Below the pieces are notes generated by a model that worked only from the letters and a program-made list of their open reading frames with translations, was not told the DNA's origin and ran no database searches. From Bacillota bacterium (GTDB lineage: Bacteria > Bacillota > Clostridia > Tissierellales > Tissierellaceae), in NCBI GenBank assembly GCA_030602225.1, contig JAUWAD010000011.1:1-35050 (forward strand): a stretch of DNA of 35,050 nucleotides, written 5' to 3'. The translations under genes and the position numbers were made by a program. Positions 6,505-34,959 of this stretch are shown one piece after another (position 1 is the stretch's first letter; the number at the start of each line of letters is the position of its first letter).

Positions 6505-6540
6505 TAAAAAGACCCTTCATCCAATGAAAGGACGAAGGGT
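6505..6540 (-). terminator. T-box terminator of the valS leader
   Basis: An 11-bp stem built from ACCCTTC/GAAGGGT plus four further pairs (one G-U), followed on the minus strand by CTTTTTA. It competes with the antiterminator formed by the T-box sequence immediately upstream. Confidence 0.88.
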
Positions 6541-6738
6541 TCGCGGTACCACCTTAATTCCATGAATAATCATGGCACTTAGTATCTGTAACGTAGATTT
6601 ACGTTTAAGCCTACTTTCATTCAGCCTAAAAGCTCAAAAGCTACCTTCATACCATCGTAACTACAAATCTTTCAGCCACGGATTTGTTCTCTTAAAGCCC
6701 TTTGGTACTACTCCTCTTTGTCTTAGCTATGTATATAA
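6505..6738 (-). promoter_or_regulatory. T-box riboswitch leader of valS (tRNA-Val sensing)
   Basis: The minus-strand leader carries the T-box core AGGTGGTACCGCG (6542-6554), whose UGGU (6551-6548) would pair with the ACCA end of uncharged tRNA-Val. The Stem I distal signature CGTGGCTGAAAG lies near 6670-6680. A likely specifier codon is GUA (valine) at 6652-6650, just 3' of Stem I; this assignment is by eye and less sure than the T-box itself. It ends in a strong terminator. Confidence 0.92.
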
Positions 6739-9659: not shown

Positions 9660-9885
9660 AATATAAAAACCCTTCTTCTCCTATTAAAGAGACGAAGGGT
9701 TATCCGCGGTACCACTCTTATTGCATAAATGCCTGCTTAAGTCCTTATAAGGGAGGACTCCCTTGTCCTATTGGTTCAGACAAAACTCAGAAGTCCATTC
9801 ACCAAATGTATCCACTGATTTTCACCACCATCAGCTCTCTTGGGAATACAAGAAAGGTTACTATTCTTCTTCATTGTAAATATTA
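9660..9885 (-). promoter_or_regulatory. T-box riboswitch leader of trpS (tRNA-Trp sensing)
   Basis: The minus strand holds the T-box AGAGTGGTACCGCGG (9704-9718 region), with UGGU at 9714-9711, a Stem I with AGAGAGC and GGTGGTGAAAA, and a clear tryptophan specifier UGG followed by A at 9797-9795 (in GAATGGACTT). It ends in a terminator before trpS. Since the T-box core, the specifier and the downstream gene agree, the assignment is firm. Confidence 0.94.
9664..9701 (-). terminator. T-box terminator of the trpS leader
   Basis: AACCCTTC pairs with GAAGGGTT, extended by an inner TCTC/GGAG-like section, followed by TTTATA on the minus strand. Confidence 0.85.
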
Positions 9886-10209: not shown

Positions 10210-11559
10210 TCATTTTAACTGGTCAATTTTTTTCAAATAATCTTCCATGTAAAATTTTCTCTCTAATCCCTTATCATTCATATACCTTACTTTCCCAAAT
10301 ATCTCCCTCTCAACCCAAGGTCTGTCATGTTTTCCAAATACCCAGGCTATGCCTGCATACCCATTAGGATCTCTACCATCTAGAGAATATTTGTCATTTA
10401 AGTATATTAAATACTCATAGGCTTTCTTGTAATCATCAGACCATTGAATGACTTTTTTACCCCAATACATTCTCATATATCCATTCATCTTCCCAGTTAT
10501 GACTAGCTCCTTCTGTGCTGCATTCCAATACCTATCGTGGGTCATGTAATTTTCTAGATCCCATAATGAGTAAGTATACTCTCTATCATCATCCATATGA
10601 GCCTCTAAGGTATCAATAGCCCATTTTGGTAAACACTCAAATGTGTCATAATTTTCATTATAAGTTGTGAAATTATAGCTTAATTCTCGTCTAGTAATTA
10701 ACTCTTCAAGAAATCCAGATTTTAAATCCTCAGCTACTCCTCTTAATTCCAAGACAATCTCTAGGGATGATATCTGGCCAAAATGTAAATATGGACTTAA
10801 ATTTGAAAGGACATCCTTGGATGGATCATTCTTAAGCTGATTATAAAATTGTATTTTGTTTTCTATGAAAAACTTCAAATTCTCCTTAGCCTTAGAGTAA
10901 CCCCCTTTGTAATATTTGGATTTACAAACGCTTTTATCAATATCTAATTGTTTAATTGCCAAATCAATATTATCTAAACTAAGCTCACTCTCAAAATCCA
11001 AGTCTCCCCTTACATCATACCTTGGCAAATTCATTTCCCTTAGATAATCCTCCAAGAGTGTTTTTATCTTTCTCCTTATGGTTGCAGCTGAGTATTCTTC
11101 CTTTTTAGATAACTCCTCAACTGGTATGAGAACATCAGTTTCTACCTGCACTAAAGGCTTATCAAGCATTTCTCCTAACCGACTTCTCCACAAGGCTTCA
11201 ATTCTTGTATAACCTTTATCTGTTATAACCATCACTGCTCTATTTGCTACTTCATTTACTCTTTCAATGGGATTTCCTCTTAGGATTATAAACTTAACCC
11301 CCATCCTACTTAACTCAATCACAACTTCTTTCAGACCTTCAAGCATGAAATAAAAGTGTCTACTATTAGCATTTGGAAACTTATCATCTACAACAAACAA
11401 TACCAAGAGAGGTTTATTAAACTCTTTTGACCTTTCAATTGCATACCCTAAGGCATGATTGTAATGAACTCTTTGAGAATGGGACATCCAATATAATACA
11501 TACTCTCCTTTTGATACATCACAAACATCATTCAAAAATTGAATTCTCTTTTGATACAT
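10210..11559 (-). CDS. Class II CPD (deoxyribodipyrimidine) photolyase
   Basis: A flavoprotein that uses blue light to split cyclobutane pyrimidine dimers in DNA. The N-terminal half (about 20-160) is a Rossmann-like antenna domain starting LYWMSHSQRVHYNHAL, characteristic of class II enzymes. The C-terminal half holds the FAD-binding helical domain, with GKMNGYMRMYWGKKV and DGRDPNGYAGIAWVFGKHDRPW. Length, 449 residues, fits class II. The ATG at 11559 has GGAGG seven bases upstream; a GTG two codons earlier would touch that site. It forms an operon with the DUF2007 gene. A terminator from the YdcF gene isolates it upstream. An 8-HDF or other antenna pigment is not predictable. Confidence 0.93.
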   Translation of the reverse strand: MYQKRIQFLNDVCDVSKGEYVLYWMSHSQRVHYNHALGYAIERSKEFNKPLLVLFVVDDKFPNANSRHFYFMLEGLKEVVIELSRMGVKFIILRGNPIERVNEVANRAVMVITDKGYTRIEALWRSRLGEMLDKPLVQVETDVLIPVEELSKKEEYSAATIRRKIKTLLEDYLREMNLPRYDVRGDLDFESELSLDNIDLAIKQLDIDKSVCKSKYYKGGYSKAKENLKFFIENKIQFYNQLKNDPSKDVLSNLSPYLHFGQISSLEIVLELRGVAEDLKSGFLEELITRRELSYNFTTYNENYDTFECLPKWAIDTLEAHMDDDREYTYSLWDLENYMTHDRYWNAAQKELVITGKMNGYMRMYWGKKVIQWSDDYKKAYEYLIYLNDKYSLDGRDPNGYAGIAWVFGKHDRPWVEREIFGKVRYMNDKGLERKFYMEDYLKKIDQLK

Positions 11560-11603
11560 TCTCACACCTCCAAATAGTACACATCTAGTATTTACCCAAT
11601 TTT

Positions 11604-13852: not shown

Positions 13853-14272
13853 CTAGTCCCCTAGACCAATTTTCTTAAGTAATCTTATAGCTTCCTCTTT
13901 TTCCTCATATGTTAAGTGTTCAAACATCTCATCAATGGTTTCCCTATGCTGTGGAAATGACTTATTCATAAACTCATACCCTTTGGCACTTAATTCTCCA
14001 TAGGTAATTCGCTTATCTTCAATACAACTTATCCTATTAACAAATCCTTTTTCAACTAATTTGTCTATAACATAAGTTGTACTTGAGCTTGCAAGGAGAA
14101 TCTTATTTCCTATGTGTTGAATTGGTTGTCTACCTTTGCTAAATAACAGTTCCATTACTGCAAACTCAGTAGGATTTACTCCGTACTTAAGCATATCTTT
14201 CTTAACTTTTCTATTCACGGTTCCAGATGCTTTTAGAAGTACCACTAATAATTTCAATGAATCATTTCCCAA
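13853..14272 (-). CDS. MarR family repressor, MhqR-like
   Basis: A 139-residue winged-helix regulator. The recognition part is around residues 28-92 (YGVNPTEFAVMELLFSKGRQ, then ILLASSSTTYVIDKLVEKGFVNR), flanked by dimer helices. It starts with TTG seven bases after GGAGG. It is followed by a VOC dioxygenase and a hydrolase, and perfect or near-perfect copies of an 18-bp palindrome that matches the known Bacillus MhqR box lie before this gene and before the dioxygenase. I therefore infer a quinone/electrophile-responsive repressor that controls both itself and its neighbours. The end runs into a weak hairpin plus seven T residues, perhaps a leaky terminator. Confidence 0.88.
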   Translation of the reverse strand: MGNDSLKLLVVLLKASGTVNRKVKKDMLKYGVNPTEFAVMELLFSKGRQPIQHIGNKILLASSSTTYVIDKLVEKGFVNRISCIEDKRITYGELSAKGYEFMNKSFPQHRETIDEMFEHLTYEEKEEAIRLLKKIGLGD

Positions 14273-14354: not shown

Positions 14355-15041
14355 TTACGATCTAATATCCATACTTATCTTTCCATCTTTTATCTCGATG
14401 ATTCTATCTGCTTTCTCCGCAATCCTCTTATCATGAGTTATTACAATAAAAGTTGACTTAAACTCATTATTTATATCCCTTAACATATTGTATACATTCT
14501 CTGTTGTCTCTGAATCAAGGTTTCCAGTTGGTTCATCCCCTAGAATTATCCTAGGACTATTAATCAAGGCCCTTGCAATTGCCGCTCTTTGCTGTTGCCC
14601 TCCAGATATATCGGTGGCTTTATTTTTTCGAACCTTTGTCAAACCAACTATCTCGATAAGGTCATTGGCTCTCTTTAGTGCCTGAGCATTTACCTTCCCA
14701 TGTTTTATCTCATAAGGAATAAGAATATTATCAATAACACTAAATTCTGGTAGAAGGTAGTGAAACTGAAAAATAAAACCTATTGTTTCATTTCTAAAGG
14801 CTGATAACTGATTTGCACTCATATCTTTTGTGCTTCTACCATCAATTAGAACATCTCCACTTGTTGGCTTATCCAATGTACCCATTATGTTCATTAAGGT
14901 GGATTTTCCACTACCTGATGCCCCTATAATAGAGTTAAAGCTTGATTCTTCAAATCCTAAATCCACATCAAACAGAACCTGTGTCTTTATCTTTTCACCG
15001 TATATTTTATTTATTTTACTTAATTCAAGAACATTAGCCAT
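14355..15041 (-). CDS. ABC transporter ATP-binding protein (LolD/MacB type)
   Basis: A 228-residue ATPase that would power the adjacent permease at the membrane. Walker A is GASGSGKST (40-48), the Q-loop is near Q92, the signature ISGGQQQR is at 145-152, Walker B is IILGDE (165-170), and the switch His is in ITHD (201-204). PTGNLDS after Walker B is typical of the MacB/LolD group. Its ATG overlaps the last codons of the permease (8 bases) with a GAGGTG site inside the permease gene, so the subunits are made together. It is the last gene of the unit that begins with a B12-binding protein. Confidence 0.95.
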   Translation of the reverse strand: MANVLELSKINKIYGEKIKTQVLFDVDLGFEESSFNSIIGASGSGKSTLMNIMGTLDKPTSGDVLIDGRSTKDMSANQLSAFRNETIGFIFQFHYLLPEFSVIDNILIPYEIKHGKVNAQALKRANDLIEIVGLTKVRKNKATDISGGQQQRAAIARALINSPRIILGDEPTGNLDSETTENVYNMLRDINNEFKSTFIVITHDKRIAEKADRIIEIKDGKISMDIRS

Positions 15042-16188
15042 TTCTTATCACCTCTATTGGATTTAGTTTTGATGACTTTCTAGCAGGTATAAACGCTGCT
15101 ACCATAGCTGCTATAATTGCTATTGCCACAGAAAAAGCAACAAATCCATAATCAAGATAGAAGGGAACCAATGGTGTTCCATCGGGATTAGTTACAAATA
15201 CTGAAAATATATATGTTAATCCTATTCCCAATCCTGTTCCAAGTATTCCTCCGAATATACCTAGTATCAAGCCCTGGAATAGAAATATTTGGCTGGCGGT
15301 TTTATTCTTAATTCCCATTGCTTTTAAGATACCCAACTGTCTTGACTTTTGTACTACAGAAATGGCAAGAACTGAACTTATGCCCAACAGAACTGCTAAC
15401 AAAACAAATACTTGTATCATATAGCTGGATGCAGATTGCCCAGTTAGTCCTGATAACAGTTCCTCATTCTGAGCCTTCCAATTATCCACCTGTAAAGAAT
15501 TACTTAGACTCATCGATAAGTCTTCAGCAATAATATCAGCATCAAATACATTCTCCACCTGGGTTTCTATTGATGAGATCTGCCCTTCCCTTTGGAACAA
15601 CTTCTGAGCTGAAGAAATTTCTGTTATCATCCATGACCTATTTAAACTAGCTATACGAAGATCAAATACCCCAACCAAAGTAACATTTTCCAGAGCAATC
15701 TCAGGGATTATAAAGTCCAACTCATCACCTATGTTCAATCCCAACTCATCAACTAGACCTATACCAAGGGCAACTTCCCTCTCCCCATTTGGCAGACGTC
15801 CTTCAATAATTCTTTCATCAAACTTATAAATACCATTTGCATCTTGAAAATCAAAACCCCTACTTAATAAGGAATATGTCTCCTCATCGTATAAGAGAAA
15901 ACCTGCAGCATCAAAACTTGAAGAAACTTGGGTAAATCTAGTGTCAGCTCTTAACATACTGTATATATCATCTTTATCTTCAAAAAAATTATCCCTCCCT
16001 GAAGGTGAGATGGTTATATGGGATGAACTCCCTATTGTCTTATCAACAAGACTTAACTGTAATCCATCAATAAGTGATCCAATGAAGATCTGAACTGATA
16101 TTCCAATGGTAATACCTAGGAGGATAAGTACGGTTTGACCTTTGTTGTTCTTTAGAAATTGCTTTGCTATCTTAAATGCCAGTCTCAC
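15034..16188 (-). CDS. ABC transporter permease (FtsX/MacB/LolC type)
   Basis: A 384-residue membrane subunit: one N-terminal helix (about 17-39), a large extracytoplasmic MacB-type domain (about 40-260) and three C-terminal helices (about 260-375) with the FtsX landmarks AISVVQKSRQLGILKAMG and FIPARKSSKLNPIEVIRNG. Such permeases act as dimers and move lipids, peptides or lipoproteins mechanically. It starts with GTG, nine bases after AAAGGAG, and overlaps the end of the B12-binding protein by 17 bases; the ATPase overlaps its own end. The cargo is unknown. Confidence 0.92.
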   Translation of the reverse strand: MRLAFKIAKQFLKNNKGQTVLILLGITIGISVQIFIGSLIDGLQLSLVDKTIGSSSHITISPSGRDNFFEDKDDIYSMLRADTRFTQVSSSFDAAGFLLYDEETYSLLSRGFDFQDANGIYKFDERIIEGRLPNGEREVALGIGLVDELGLNIGDELDFIIPEIALENVTLVGVFDLRIASLNRSWMITEISSAQKLFQREGQISSIETQVENVFDADIIAEDLSMSLSNSLQVDNWKAQNEELLSGLTGQSASSYMIQVFVLLAVLLGISSVLAISVVQKSRQLGILKAMGIKNKTASQIFLFQGLILGIFGGILGTGLGIGLTYIFSVFVTNPDGTPLVPFYLDYGFVAFSVAIAIIAAMVAAFIPARKSSKLNPIEVIRNG

Positions 16189-16834
16189 TTACATCAGCTC
16201 CTTTGTCCAAATCTAATACATCACTAAAATTTTTAAGGTGAATATCTGCTCCAACTTCCCTATATGCGTTGGGATTATTATTAAAAGCATAACCTCCCAC
16301 AACAAATCTTATTTGGTATTGAATCTTATCTTTAATGGTATTGATTGTATTTTTTAGTGCAACTAGGTTATAGTAATTTGTTACGCTTATAGATATAATA
16401 TCAGGTTTAATCACCTCAATAGCTTTAAGAATAGTCCTTTCAGGTGTATTAGCTCCTATGAATGTTGTCTTATAGCCAGCAATTGTATAAAAATCTGATA
16501 CCATCCTGGCTCCAATTTCATGCTCTTCAAACCTTGGACACATAACTATAACATTCTGATTTTTCTCATTGCCCAATGCCTTTCTTTCTTTTATTACATA
16601 AGGATAAGAAGCTTCGATTATCCCCCTGATAATTCCACTTCTAACATGTTCCTTCCAGATTAGATTATCCTCATCTCCGTTGTATTCATGAATAATGCTA
16701 TTTAATGCTGGGCTTAATACATTCTGATATAGATCCATTACTGATATCTGTTTTTTATCAAGGGCATTAAAACAGATTTCCATTGCTAGAGCTCTATCTT
16801 CATTTTTCAATGCAGCTAATAATTCATCATACAT
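16172..16834 (-). CDS. CarH/LitR-like B12-binding protein lacking a DNA-binding domain
   Basis: A 220-residue protein with a helical cap (about 1-85) containing WKEHVRSG (EH at 62-63) and a B12-binding Rossmann domain (about 93-205). The cobalamin motif is EEHEIG (103-108, axial His105), with SVT at 150-152 and the GG of VVGGYAF at 180-181. ExHEIG and the EH in the cap resemble the CarH/LitR photoreceptor regulators more than methyltransferase corrinoid proteins, but the MerR helix-turn-helix is absent: the protein begins with the cap. The Trp usually found 9-10 residues before the EH seems replaced by Tyr51 or Asn52. It overlaps the permease gene, so a regulatory link to the exporter is likely. 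Its function is not established. Confidence 0.85.
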   Translation of the reverse strand: MYDELLAALKNEDRALAMEICFNALDKKQISVMDLYQNVLSPALNSIIHEYNGDEDNLIWKEHVRSGIIRGIIEASYPYVIKERKALGNEKNQNVIVMCPRFEEHEIGARMVSDFYTIAGYKTTFIGANTPERTILKAIEVIKPDIISISVTNYYNLVALKNTINTIKDKIQYQIRFVVGGYAFNNNPNAYREVGADIHLKNFSDVLDLDKGADVSETGI

Positions 16835-16979: not shown

Positions 16980-19457
16980 TTAAATATTTAAAAGGTTGTT
17001 TATATCCTCCACCTTAAGGGGTTTACTAAAATAATACCCTTGGGCGAAATCACAATTAGATTCTTTCAAAAACTCCAATTGTTCTTTAGTCTCTACCCCT
17101 TCAGCAACTACTTTTATATTTAAATCATGGGCTAGTTTAATTACAGTTCTAATTATTGTGGATTTATCATTATCAGATCCTATGGACCAAATAAACTCCC
17201 TGTCCAATTTAATTATATCTATTGGAAGTTTCTGAAGATAAGTCAAAGATGAATATCCTGTTCCAAAATCATCTAAAGCAATGCTTACTCCAAGTTTTTT
17301 AATTTCCTTTAAGGTTTTAATAATCCCTTCCAAATCAGATATGATTGCAGTCTCAGTTATTTCAAAGGTTATACTCTTTGCATGAGCTTCTTCCAAATAG
17401 CATGTTTTGATTTTCTCAACCCATTTATCTCTGCCTATCATTTTACCTGAGATATTTATGGCAAGCTTTATATGATCAAGACCACTACTTGTCCAAATAT
17501 CTTTTTGATTATATGCAGCTTTTATAACGTACTCATCTATAAACTCAATTTGTCCTGTTTCTTCCGCAAAAGGTATGAAATCATTAGGAGCTACAATGCC
17601 TCTAGTTGGGTGTTCCCATCTAATTAAGGCTTCCACTCCAGTTATCCTATCTGTCCTTAAGTCAATCTGGGGCTGATAAACAAGATAGAATTGATTATTA
17701 AAGATAGCATTTCTTAAATCATTTCCAAGCTGCATATACTCAAGTGTCCTTAATCTCATTTGATTGTCGTAAACCAGGAATTTATTCTTGCCACTTTCCT
17801 TAGCGTATGCCAATGCAGTATCAGCATTTCTCATGATGGTTTCAAAGTTATTTCCATGCTCGGGATATATGGCTAAACCAGAACTAGCAGAAACCACGAA
17901 TTCCTGCTCCATATAATACCATGGTATTCTTATTGAGTCTATCACTTCATTTAATAGTCCCTTTATTTCTTCTGTCTTGTGTTGTTTATGAAAAAGTAGT
18001 ACGAATTCATCCCCTCCAAATCTATAAGTAGTTGCTTTTTCACCTATAACATTTTTTATTGAGTTTGAAATAAATAATAGAAGCTCATCCCCTGCATCAT
18101 GGCCCATGGAGTCATTTACAAGCTTAAAGTTGTCAATGTCCATATAAGCTACTCCAATGCATGATAGTCTATCAACATCCTTAATAATTTCATTGAAGTC
18201 GAATTTGAATTTTTCTCTATTAGGTAAATTAGTTAAGGAATCATAATATGCCAGTTTCTCTAGCTTATCCTCCATTATTGCACGTTCTGTAATATCTACT
18301 CCGATAAAAACATACCCTTCTATATTCTCTTCATTGTCATGAAGAAAGCTATTATTCCAAAGTAGAGTTATCTCCTTTTGGTCCTTGTTTCTTAATGTTA
18401 TTTCCATGCTACTCATGGTGTGCCCCATCATAAGTTTATTAATAAGATTATCTATATTATCCTTATCCGTATATGGTTGAAGAAAGTCAATTATATTTGT
18501 ACCTAAAATATCCTCTGCCCTATAATCCAAGATGCTTTCAGCGAAGTGATTGAATTTAGTAATAAATCCATCCTTATCGCATACAATAATTACAGTAGGA
18601 GACTCGTTTGCTATACTATCCACCAACTCCTTTTCTCTTCTTAGAGAATCTTGGAGCTTGATTTGATTGGTTAAATCAGTATGGGATCCAGCAAATCTAA
18701 TTGCTTTACCACTGTCATCTCTGAAAATCTTACCTCTACTTAATATCCATCTGTAACTTCCATCCTTTGTACAAATCCTAAATATGTTCTCATATATATC
18801 AGTTCCTTCCTTAACATACTTTTCCATAATCTTGACACCATAAATTAGATCATCCTGATGAATCAACTCTTGCCACTTCTTCATGGTATTAATATTGGCT
18901 GCATCTTCATCACTATAGCCAAACTCCGGCTTTAATAAAATTGATGTATAATAGGTATCATTGTCTAGATTCCAATTCCAAACTCCATCATTTGATCCTT
19001 CTATGGATAGTGAGTATGTTATTTGACTTTCATTTAATGCATGCTTATAATGCTCAAGCTGATTATATTTGTCCTTTAACTCATTTTGAGCATCTTCAAG
19101 AACTTCATAGGATTTGTCCAATTCTTCATACCCCTGGTAGATTCTATCAGTGGCAGTTTTAAGTAGTATCATTCTATTGGCAATTAGGAAATAGAATACT
19201 AATCCTGATAAAAGAACATAGATCCACCCTTTATAAGTCTGCAGTCTATTATATAAATCCTGATCTTTGGCAAAATCAAATAATAACCTATCAGAAAACA
19301 GTATCCATATTGAACCTATGACAATGTAAAGTACAATAACTTTCATCGTCTCTTTTCTTGGCTTAATACTCTTTCGAAGGTCATTAAAATTTTGGAGGAT
19401 AGTACTCCTATCTTCCGTATTAAGATTTAATTTGTCTAAATGTTTTTTATAGGACAT
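16980..19457 (-). CDS. Membrane-bound PAS-PAS-GGDEF-EAL cyclic-di-GMP enzyme
   Basis: An 825-residue signalling protein. Two membrane helices (about 39-60 and 77-98) are followed by a coiled coil (about 100-145), PAS1 (about 150-265, with C-terminal PAC-like segment SYRWILSRG), PAS2 (about 278-392), GGDEF (about 400-560) and EAL (about 580-822). The cyclase motif is intact, GGDEF at 481-485, but the RxxD inhibitory site expected upstream reads GEKA. The EAL domain keeps EAL (609-611), DDFGTGYSS (729-737) and EGVET (786-790), so phosphodiesterase activity is likely; net activity is open. It has a strong AGGAGG site. It lies 57 bases after the LysR gene, with no clear promoter between. Confidence 0.93.
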   Translation of the reverse strand: MSYKKHLDKLNLNTEDRSTILQNFNDLRKSIKPRKETMKVIVLYIVIGSIWILFSDRLLFDFAKDQDLYNRLQTYKGWIYVLLSGLVFYFLIANRMILLKTATDRIYQGYEELDKSYEVLEDAQNELKDKYNQLEHYKHALNESQITYSLSIEGSNDGVWNWNLDNDTYYTSILLKPEFGYSDEDAANINTMKKWQELIHQDDLIYGVKIMEKYVKEGTDIYENIFRICTKDGSYRWILSRGKIFRDDSGKAIRFAGSHTDLTNQIKLQDSLRREKELVDSIANESPTVIIVCDKDGFITKFNHFAESILDYRAEDILGTNIIDFLQPYTDKDNIDNLINKLMMGHTMSSMEITLRNKDQKEITLLWNNSFLHDNEENIEGYVFIGVDITERAIMEDKLEKLAYYDSLTNLPNREKFKFDFNEIIKDVDRLSCIGVAYMDIDNFKLVNDSMGHDAGDELLLFISNSIKNVIGEKATTYRFGGDEFVLLFHKQHKTEEIKGLLNEVIDSIRIPWYYMEQEFVVSASSGLAIYPEHGNNFETIMRNADTALAYAKESGKNKFLVYDNQMRLRTLEYMQLGNDLRNAIFNNQFYLVYQPQIDLRTDRITGVEALIRWEHPTRGIVAPNDFIPFAEETGQIEFIDEYVIKAAYNQKDIWTSSGLDHIKLAINISGKMIGRDKWVEKIKTCYLEEAHAKSITFEITETAIISDLEGIIKTLKEIKKLGVSIALDDFGTGYSSLTYLQKLPIDIIKLDREFIWSIGSDNDKSTIIRTVIKLAHDLNIKVVAEGVETKEQLEFLKESNCDFAQGYYFSKPLKVEDINNLLNI

Positions 19458-34675: not shown

Positions 34676-34930
34676 ATAAAAAAAAACCTTCCCCCTGTAA
34701 ATAATATACAGAGGCAAAGGTTAATCTTCGCGGTTCCACTCTGATTAGGATTTCTCCCATCTCTATTCAGATACTTTCATATCCTAGTTCTGTAACGGGA
34801 ACTCCCGTATTGGTCTACTTAATTCAACCAAAAGCTCCTTGGTGCACTTCATCTACATCAATACAGATAACTCCCACCATTGTTATCCTCTCTTTGGTAT
34901 TAATCATAAACTACTCTACCAACTCAAAGC
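34676..34930 (-). promoter_or_regulatory. T-box riboswitch leader of cysK-cysE (tRNA-Cys sensing)
   Basis: The T-box reads AGAGTGGAACCGCGAAG on the minus strand. Its UGGA (34738-34735) pairs with a UCCA end, as expected for tRNA-Cys with discriminator U. The specifier codon is UGC followed by A at 34846-34844, and Stem I has AGAGAGGATAAC and GGTGGGAGTTATC. A cysteine-specific riboswitch is thus supported twice. This stretch accounts for most of the gene-free end of the window; 34990-35050 shows nothing I can name. Confidence 0.95.
34677..34722 (-). terminator. T-box terminator of the cysK leader
   Basis: AACCTT/AAGGTT plus CCTCTGTA/TACAGGGG (one G-U) around a 7-base loop, followed on the minus strand by a run of nine T residues. 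Confidence 0.9.
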
Positions 34931-34959
34931 TATTATTAATAATTATTATCAACTACTAT

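Follow-up and report, generated by a model that had tools for sequence, protein, structure and literature searches.

A B12-binding-type protein encoded in an FtsX-type exporter operon: conserved linkage and a possible cobalamin gate on transport

Can the state of a cobalamin be reported directly to a transporter? The question is raised by three genes in a 35,050-nucleotide stretch of contig JAUWAD010000011.1 (assembly GCA_030602225.1, Tissierellaceae, Clostridia), the whole of which is called the window here. On its minus strand, a gene for a protein with a B12-binding domain is followed, in the order of transcription, by the genes for the permease and the ATPase of an ATP-binding cassette (ABC) exporter. 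An earlier annotation made from the letters alone (the sequence-only reading) had described the first product as a CarH-like B12 sensor lacking a DNA-binding domain and had proposed that it may report to the exporter, or that the exporter may handle a corrinoid-linked cargo. We found that this observation was right and larger than stated, as the set spread beyond Clostridia, was often accompanied by an adaptor gene, and in this order, but not in the wider set of loci, was tied to ultraviolet (UV) and light genes. The linkage of the B12 gene to the permease gene is beyond chance, and the B12 protein belongs to the exporter operon as a dedicated component. As the most likely explanation, with a chance slightly better than even, we propose that cobalamin state gates an FtsX-type exporter through a dedicated cytosolic B12-binding subunit, the three genes encoding one machine.

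The linkage was examined from both sides. Among 60 relatives, 15 carried an orthologue of the B12 protein at E < 1e-37, and all 15 carried the permease as well. The permease was present in 29 of the 249 genomes of the order (the window's own included) and in 20 of 391 genomes sampled from the class, four of which were already counted in the order; the order and the class sample together gave a permease-anchored set of 45 loci. In 35 of these 45 loci the B12 gene was adjacent, upstream, and on the same strand. It was lost to the contig end in two others (L095 and L122), whose genomes both have it ending another contig, and an adjacent B12 gene was absent from the remaining eight (L083, L085, L093, L094, L115, L124, L125, and L126). 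On the permease tree 43 of the 45 rows formed one clade, in which the members lacking the B12 gene were scattered, with at least seven changes of B12 state (midpoint root, several open forks). This scatter fits repeated loss. At L083, a 44-residue remnant of the B12 gene (G198:C6:155393-155527) lay just upstream of an intact exporter, and the close relative L040 keeps the gene.

For the reverse direction, named genomes were scanned with a B12 profile, which gave 59 loci, 41 of them new; a single-sequence scan with the window protein matched no relative. The permease was next door in 36 of the 41 new loci, and three more (L163, L184, and L185) ran off the contig. A Bathyarchaeota-labelled contig (L162:6216-6863(+)) held the B12 gene with no exporter in the 1.9 kb behind it, and its neighbours were an ICMT/PEMT methyltransferase-like gene and a gene whose 1932-aa product has a Big_1 domain. 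At L186:7992-8312(+) the B12 frame matched for about 70 residues before breaking off, and the genes behind it were of conjugal transfer (TrbL_5), probably an element inserted into the B12 gene. With B12 and permease genes adjacent in 35 of 45 and 36 of 41 loci, the three-gene set pointed out in the window is conserved elsewhere, and the lack of conservation that would have refuted the sequence-only reading was not observed. Host labels included Clostridia, Fundicoccus, Acholeplasmataceae, and Erysipelotrichaceae; by phylum the set reached Bacillota, Chloroflexota (Dehalococcoidia), Thermotogota (Thermotogaceae), and metagenome-assembled genomes (MAGs) labelled as archaea, among them Sigynarchaeum, Thermoplasmata, and Lokiarchaeota, the last with a contig of 793 kb. 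Isolates with the set include Soehngenia longivitae 1933P, Clostridium bowmanii, and Pseudobacteroides cellulosolvens. Since most of these records are MAGs, the archaeal cases may be contamination.

The gene overlaps seen in the window, 17 bases between B12 and permease genes and 8 between permease and ATPase genes, were confirmed on coordinates and recurred in relatives. B12 and permease genes overlapped at all 34 junctions measured, with the starts of L113 and L117 extrapolated; the overlap was 4 nt long at 23 junctions, 17 nt at 10, and 3 nt at one. The 8-nt overlap of permease and ATPase genes was kept in 27 of the 31 loci measured. Such a pattern is typical of proteins that are produced jointly and in a fixed ratio. 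The GTG start assigned to the window's permease gene was backed by the consensus of its relatives, which opens with the identical MRLAF, and by an AAAGGAG 9 nt upstream.

A gene for an HlyD/MacA-like adaptor was found by clustering in 19 of the 45 permease loci and by direct match in 18 (the adaptor of L126 was assigned by clustering only); 14 of these 19 loci had the order adaptor, B12 gene, permease. The window has no adaptor gene. Three loci of the window's own genus (L044, L045, and L047) have the adaptor-bearing set, and on the permease tree the window's permease groups with other genera and one genome of family f9; the difference between the window's set and those of its congeners reflects either horizontal transfer or old paralogy. 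Beyond the adaptor a constant fourth operon gene was considered and rejected: among the top 25 clusters no other was shared by more than 5 loci of the first 46, no flank cluster was in more than 4 of the 41 new loci, and when 126 proteins flanking the set in 37 of the new loci were assigned with Pfam, each family was present in 5 at most. By clustering or Pfam, no biosynthetic gene stood out as recurrent beside the set, which suggests that the cargo is made elsewhere in the cell.

The exporter itself belongs to the FtsX type (LolCDE/MacB superfamily). Pfam placed FtsX and MacB_PCD in the permease and ABC_tran in the ATPase, all over cut-off, and by NCBIfam the permease was nearest LolC/E and the ATPase nearest LolD, both below the equivalog cut-offs (139.1 vs 362.45 bits and 253 vs 307.75 bits, respectively). 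The MacB cut-off was likewise missed by the permease (46.2 vs 966 bits), and ATPase and permease are separate overlapping genes, unlike the fusion in MacB proper. The permease model (predicted local distance difference test score, pLDDT, 83.7; predicted template-modelling score, pTM, 0.61) matched LolE best in fold (Z 33.3); HrtB, a heme exporter, scored 20.8 and MacB 20.7. An HrtBA-type heme exporter as the nearest kin was rejected, the HrtB fold lying far under LolE.

The B12 protein was made of a cap and a B12 domain only, as had been read from the window: its AlphaFold2 model (pLDDT 90.8) had four main cap helices and a Rossmann-type domain, the 220-aa chain left no MerR DNA-binding domain, and EEHEIG with His105 and WKEH at 60-63 were present exactly as described. 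Methyltransferase partners had been called absent, and a Pfam scan of 27 window proteins showed no methyltransferase-type family (46 open reading frames of the window reach 80 aa or more, many overlapping). The B12-binding family PF02310 was matched over cut-off (E 1.3e-14) and the cap family PF02607 under it (17.8 vs 23 bits). In NCBIfam the MtgC/MtbC corrinoid proteins came first and CarH was among the weak matches, with all scores far under cut-off (best 40.8 vs 370 bits). The best solved fold match was a photocobilin (8j2w, Z 23.9, root-mean-square deviation 2.1 over 202 residues), followed by MetH (1bmt, Z 20.9), a methylamine corrinoid protein (3ezx, Z 20.2), CtMerR (8jbt, Z 20.2), CarH (19.0), and AerR (18.9).

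We compared the 36 B12 proteins of the permease-anchored set to the published CarH-type light signature, reported as GxxW, EH, GxxH, and GxxxP (PMC11796333). Eight residues were invariant in all 36 (W60, E62, H63, E103, H105, G108, G127, and P131), so that the cap EH motif (E62, H63) and GxxxP (G127, P131) were present throughout. His105 was present in every protein, yet glycine and histidine of GxxH occurred together in 5 of 36 only, the window protein reading FEEH at this position. The tryptophan of GxxW was found in none of the 36 and in all five comparison proteins, other B12 proteins of the order (L048-L052). The exporter-linked proteins instead shared an invariant tryptophan two residues ahead of EH, which was absent from the comparison proteins; CtMerR carries both tryptophans. 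The tryptophan of WxEH may take over an upper-face role. WxEH was counted only in the permease-anchored 36, as the profile scan of named genomes was selected on the IWxEH pattern. Of the label CarH-like, the missing DNA-binding domain and a B12-photoreceptor fold at the top of the list held; the label was too strong, because GxxW was absent from all 36 and the MetH and methylamine corrinoid domains fitted nearly equally well. The B12 protein of the exporter set is not CarH.

Cobalamin adenosyltransferase families were found in 29 of 29 permease genomes of the order (PF01923 in 26 and PF02572 in 16; no control set was used), and since every one of these genomes has one family or the other, adenosylcobalamin can probably be made in them. 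The window's own genome encodes in addition a 294-aa protein (L052:6767-7651(-)) whose B12 domain has GxxW, EH, GxxH, and GxxxP and which has an apparent XRE-type helix-turn-helix, read from its sequence; it is a candidate for a second, more canonical B12 photoreceptor of this genome.

We further investigated genes of light and UV-damage response near the set. Photolyase and RudS (TudS-DUF1722) genes lay directly upstream of the B12 gene in three loci of one genus (L037-L039). UvdE-DUF1722 was upstream and RudS directly downstream at L035, UvdE-DUF1722 was upstream of the adaptor at L090 and L091, RudS was directly downstream at L095, and a photolyase-like gene lay 4.6 kb upstream at L118; these genes were identified with Pfam at L035 and L037 and by tblastn elsewhere. 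Just past the ATPase of L120 there was a partial UvdE-like match, and a DUF1722 gene was rejected for this piece, as the match covers the UvdE part of the query (residues 185-315). RudS has been reported as common in light-responsive operons, beside photolyase and the B12-dependent LitR (PMC11417400).

Across the order, photolyase was present in 10 of 25 B12-exporter genomes versus 4 of 224 others, UvdE-DUF1722 in 14 of 25 versus 13 of 224, and RudS-length DUF1722 in 13 of 25 versus 10 of 224 (the last two sets were assigned by frame length and position and domain-checked in L035 and L037 only). Any of the three occurred in 22 of 25 versus 22 of 224 (odds ratio 67) and, outside the large family f4, in 22 of 24 versus 18 of 94. 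Superoxide dismutase, taken as the control, gave 19 of 25 versus 74 of 224 (odds ratio 6.4, and 3.3 outside f4). Membership of f4 was taken from genome order, and the genomes outside it numbered 116 in the whole-UvdE count and 118 in the any-light-gene count. Within 8 kb of the permease lay 4 of 10 photolyase matches (0.06 expected), 3 of 20 UvdE matches (0.10 expected), and 5 of 15 RudS-type matches (0.08 expected), in 8 of the 29 permease genomes of the order. By genus, proximity was seen in 4 of 14 versus 0.24 expected (p 5e-5), and photolyase in 6 of 14 versus 2 of 78 genera (p 1e-4). The p-values are optimistic as the genomes are related, and the idea of light genes arose partly from the same loci that the proximity test counted. 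A light tie is likely in Tissierellales; it was not seen in the wider set of loci, and the general function of the B12-exporter set may be another one.

Under the gating proposed here, the B12 protein would bind cobalamin base-off with His105 as the lower ligand, and the invariant W60-x-E62-H63 of the cap would face the upper ligand. A change at the upper ligand or in the state of the cobalt (loss of adenosyl in light, or a change in redox, methyl, or corrinoid supply) would trigger the system by altering the cap or the oligomer of the B12 protein. The altered protein would then set the activity or the assembly of the ATPase-permease complex by direct contact, as AerR acts on its partner, and would thus be a regulatory subunit through which the exporter reads cobalamin state. 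Light or UV stress is a plausible signal in Tissierellales, where photolyase, UvdE-DUF1722, and RudS accompany the set. Nothing nearby encodes the cargo, which is probably a small compound of a common kind, either hydrophobic or tetrapyrrole-like. A bolder form, in which a cobalamin photoreceptor or cobalt-state sensor gates the exporter protein-on-protein and independently of transcription, would amount to efflux gated by light or redox in anaerobes that range from Clostridia to Asgard archaea (if the MAG labels hold), with WxEH replacing the GxxW of CarH; we put it forward tentatively, as a possibility that is more probably wrong than right.

Several results weigh against gating by cobalamin, and above all against light as its signal. 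Binding, contact, direction of control, signal, and cargo are all inferred rather than shown, and the GxxW tryptophan is missing from every exporter-linked protein. The exporter can exist without the B12 gene, as it does in 8 of 45 loci, four or five of them with an adaptor. Taken whole, UvdE was present in 14 of 25 versus 33 of 224 genomes (odds ratio 7.4, and 3.1 outside f4), an association no better than that of the superoxide-dismutase control, and the DUF1722 fusions were set apart only once the data had been seen. Two of the four exporter genomes of the order that lack the B12 gene carry UvdE-DUF1722 and RudS-length genes, so the light genes may follow the exporter and not the sensor. 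Queries with photolyase, UvdE-DUF1722, and RudS matched in the flanks of none of the 41 new loci (469 kb; 17 loci with both flanks full). Many of the hosts, to go by their record titles, live in the dark.

The explanation that comes closest to the proposed gating is a special case within its odds, and somewhat unlikely: a true adenosylcobalamin photoreceptor whose exporter expels phototoxic tetrapyrroles. Co-occurrence and clustering of light genes with the set in Tissierellales, and the reported company of RudS in light-responsive operons, speak for such photoprotection; it faces the missing GxxW, the whole-UvdE count, and the empty flanks of the 41 further loci, and a permease whose fold is nearer LolE than HrtB or MacB.

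Handling of corrinoids was considered as an unlikely alternative, the B12 protein being either a carrier in the cytosol from which the exporter receives corrinoids or B12-linked cargo (cobalamin efflux) or a gauge of corrinoid supply. LolE/MacB-type permeases take large amphipathic cargo, and both the permease fold of this type and the dedicated B12-binding-type subunit would suit this role. However, the invariant ExH and WxEH suggest tight, functional use of a cofactor and not its hand-over, no recurrent flanking cluster was recognised as cob/cbi (clusters read by eye; top 25 Pfam families), and the presence of adenosyltransferases is unspecific.

A corrinoid methyl carrier that works with a methyltransferase, the exporter moving the methylated product or substrate, is improbable to the same degree. 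The NCBIfam matches to methyltransferase corrinoid proteins such as MtgC/MtbC are the best ones, and genes of the URO-D family, to which MtaA-type methyltransferases belong, flank at least five loci in three lineages (L046, L121, L122, L153, and L156). These matches are nonetheless far sub-cut-off, a URO-D gene was not found in the other flanks of a search that was not exhaustive, URO-D genes are abundant in these lineages, and ExHxxG with WxEH differs from the DxHxxG of methyl carriers. On the Asgard-labelled contigs of L153 (1732-4089(-)) and L156 (2010-4469(-)), two tandem URO-D-family genes were divergent to the set.

Mere hitch-hiking, in which the role of the B12 protein is unrelated to the exporter and co-expression alone holds the genes together, finds some room in the eight exporters lacking the B12 gene and the one B12 gene lacking an exporter (L162), but is improbable given an order and short overlaps kept over many families and phyla and an exporter in 15 of 15 genomes with the B12 orthologue among 60 relatives.

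The coordinates of the set and of neighbouring features are collected in Table 1.

Table 1. Features of the B12-exporter locus and its surroundings in the window
Feature	Position	Strand	Description
B12 protein gene	16172..16834	-	220 aa, ATG start; helical cap ~1-87, B12-binding domain ~91-210
Exporter permease gene	15034..16188	-	384 aa, GTG start; FtsX + MacB_PCD; fold nearest LolE
Exporter ATPase gene	14355..15041	-	228 aa; LolD/MacB type
Overlap of B12 and permease genes	16172..16188	-	17 nt
AAAGGAG, Shine-Dalgarno-like site of permease	16198..16204	-	within B12 coding sequence
Overlap of permease and ATPase genes	15034..15041	-	8 nt
DNA photolyase-family gene	10210..11565	-	same strand, 2.8 kb downstream of ATPase
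MarR-family regulator gene	13853..14272	-	downstream of ATPase

For the photolyase-family gene of the window, a place in the operon is a candidate assignment only. No relative of the MarR-family regulator was found beside other sets, and it is possible as a local regulator only. The gene for a PAS-GGDEF-EAL protein (16980-19457(-)) lies directly upstream of the B12 gene; it was rejected as part of the system, no homologue being found at that place in the relatives checked. Control of the set by a cobalamin riboswitch was also rejected: none was present in the window at gathering scores, and the one found in the 8 sources searched, at L040, lay on the opposite strand and about 6 kb away from the B12 gene of that locus. 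Three T-box leaders were seen in the window (6525-6733(-), 9685-9883(-), and 34707-34936(-)), the first two preceding aminoacyl-tRNA synthetase genes (tRNA-synt_1, tRNA-synt_1b). Elsewhere, the set on three Acholeplasmataceae-type contigs (L166, L175, and L178) was directly preceded by a small gene and a gene of 334-335 aa, apparently members of the PadR and HAAS families. The B12 gene follows what we take from its sequence to be a recA-like gene at L173, L183, and L185, and L181 has the same 3 kb upstream; these contigs are mostly labelled Acholeplasmataceae.

B12 serves as an enzyme cofactor, and in CarH, AerR, and photocobilins it senses light, with transcription or second messengers as the output. 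Among the papers listed from the open-access literature, which leaves out most subscription papers and all preprints, none was found to describe an ABC exporter operon with a B12 protein; within that range, the statement of the sequence-only reading that no system of this kind had been described agrees with ours. The parts of the set are of known kinds, and their combination was not found there. There is a real chance that gating of transport by cobalamin is a categorically new output. If true, a B12 subunit of an ABC exporter would provide this output together with a ready-made optogenetic or redox handle on transport, and would raise the questions why anaerobes of several phyla, many from dark habitats, retain the subunit and whether B12 controls the export of phototoxic tetrapyrroles.

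Compared to CarH and LitR, the protein of the exporter set shares the helical cap and B12 domain, the lower-ligand histidine, the EH and GxxxP motifs, and the fold (Z about 19), and differs in lacking the MerR domain and GxxW and in having its gene in an exporter operon. AerR/PpaA proteins resemble it as stand-alone B12 proteins that lack a DNA-binding domain (fold Z 18.9). AerR has been reported as a B12 photoreceptor that acts by binding a partner protein and is redox-regulated (PMC5362033), and an AerR-like protein devoid of a B12 domain has been reported to follow redox still (PMC10734443). The partner of AerR, however, is the transcription factor CrtJ, whereas the gene of the exporter set overlaps exporter genes, and no PpsR/CrtJ-type regulator was noted among the 27 window proteins scanned. 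Photocobilins gave the nearest solved fold (8j2w), but the exporter-set protein ends after the B12 domain, with no bilin-binding domain, GGDEF output, or GxxW. MtgC, MtbC, MtaC, and MetH have the same architecture of cap and B12 domain, the first two giving the best NCBIfam matches and MetH a Z of 20.9; they are set apart by scores far below cut-off, by the lack of a constant methyltransferase neighbour, and by ExHxxG in the exporter-set protein.

On the side of transport, the set resembles LolCDE, MacAB, and HrtBA in its FtsX permease with a LolE-like fold, its LolD-like ATPase, and its HlyD/MacA-like adaptor in 19 of 45 loci, and differs from them in falling short of the Lol cut-offs, in the B12 protein of the operon, and in an ATPase that is unfused, unlike that of MacB. 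MacAB has been reported to matter for survival in light by expelling protoporphyrin (PMC4263509). The sole described case that we met in which a transporter domain and a B12 domain are joined is HaAI-2E, a protein described as an AI-2E exporter, a B12 domain, and a diguanylate cyclase in one chain (PMC11796333). It differs from the exporter set in being a fusion, in its transporter family, and in an arginine that replaces the ligand histidine, and it is not predicted to be a photoreceptor; the B12 protein of the exporter set is a separate protein, keeps His105 in all 36 cases, and is encoded next to an FtsX-type permease.

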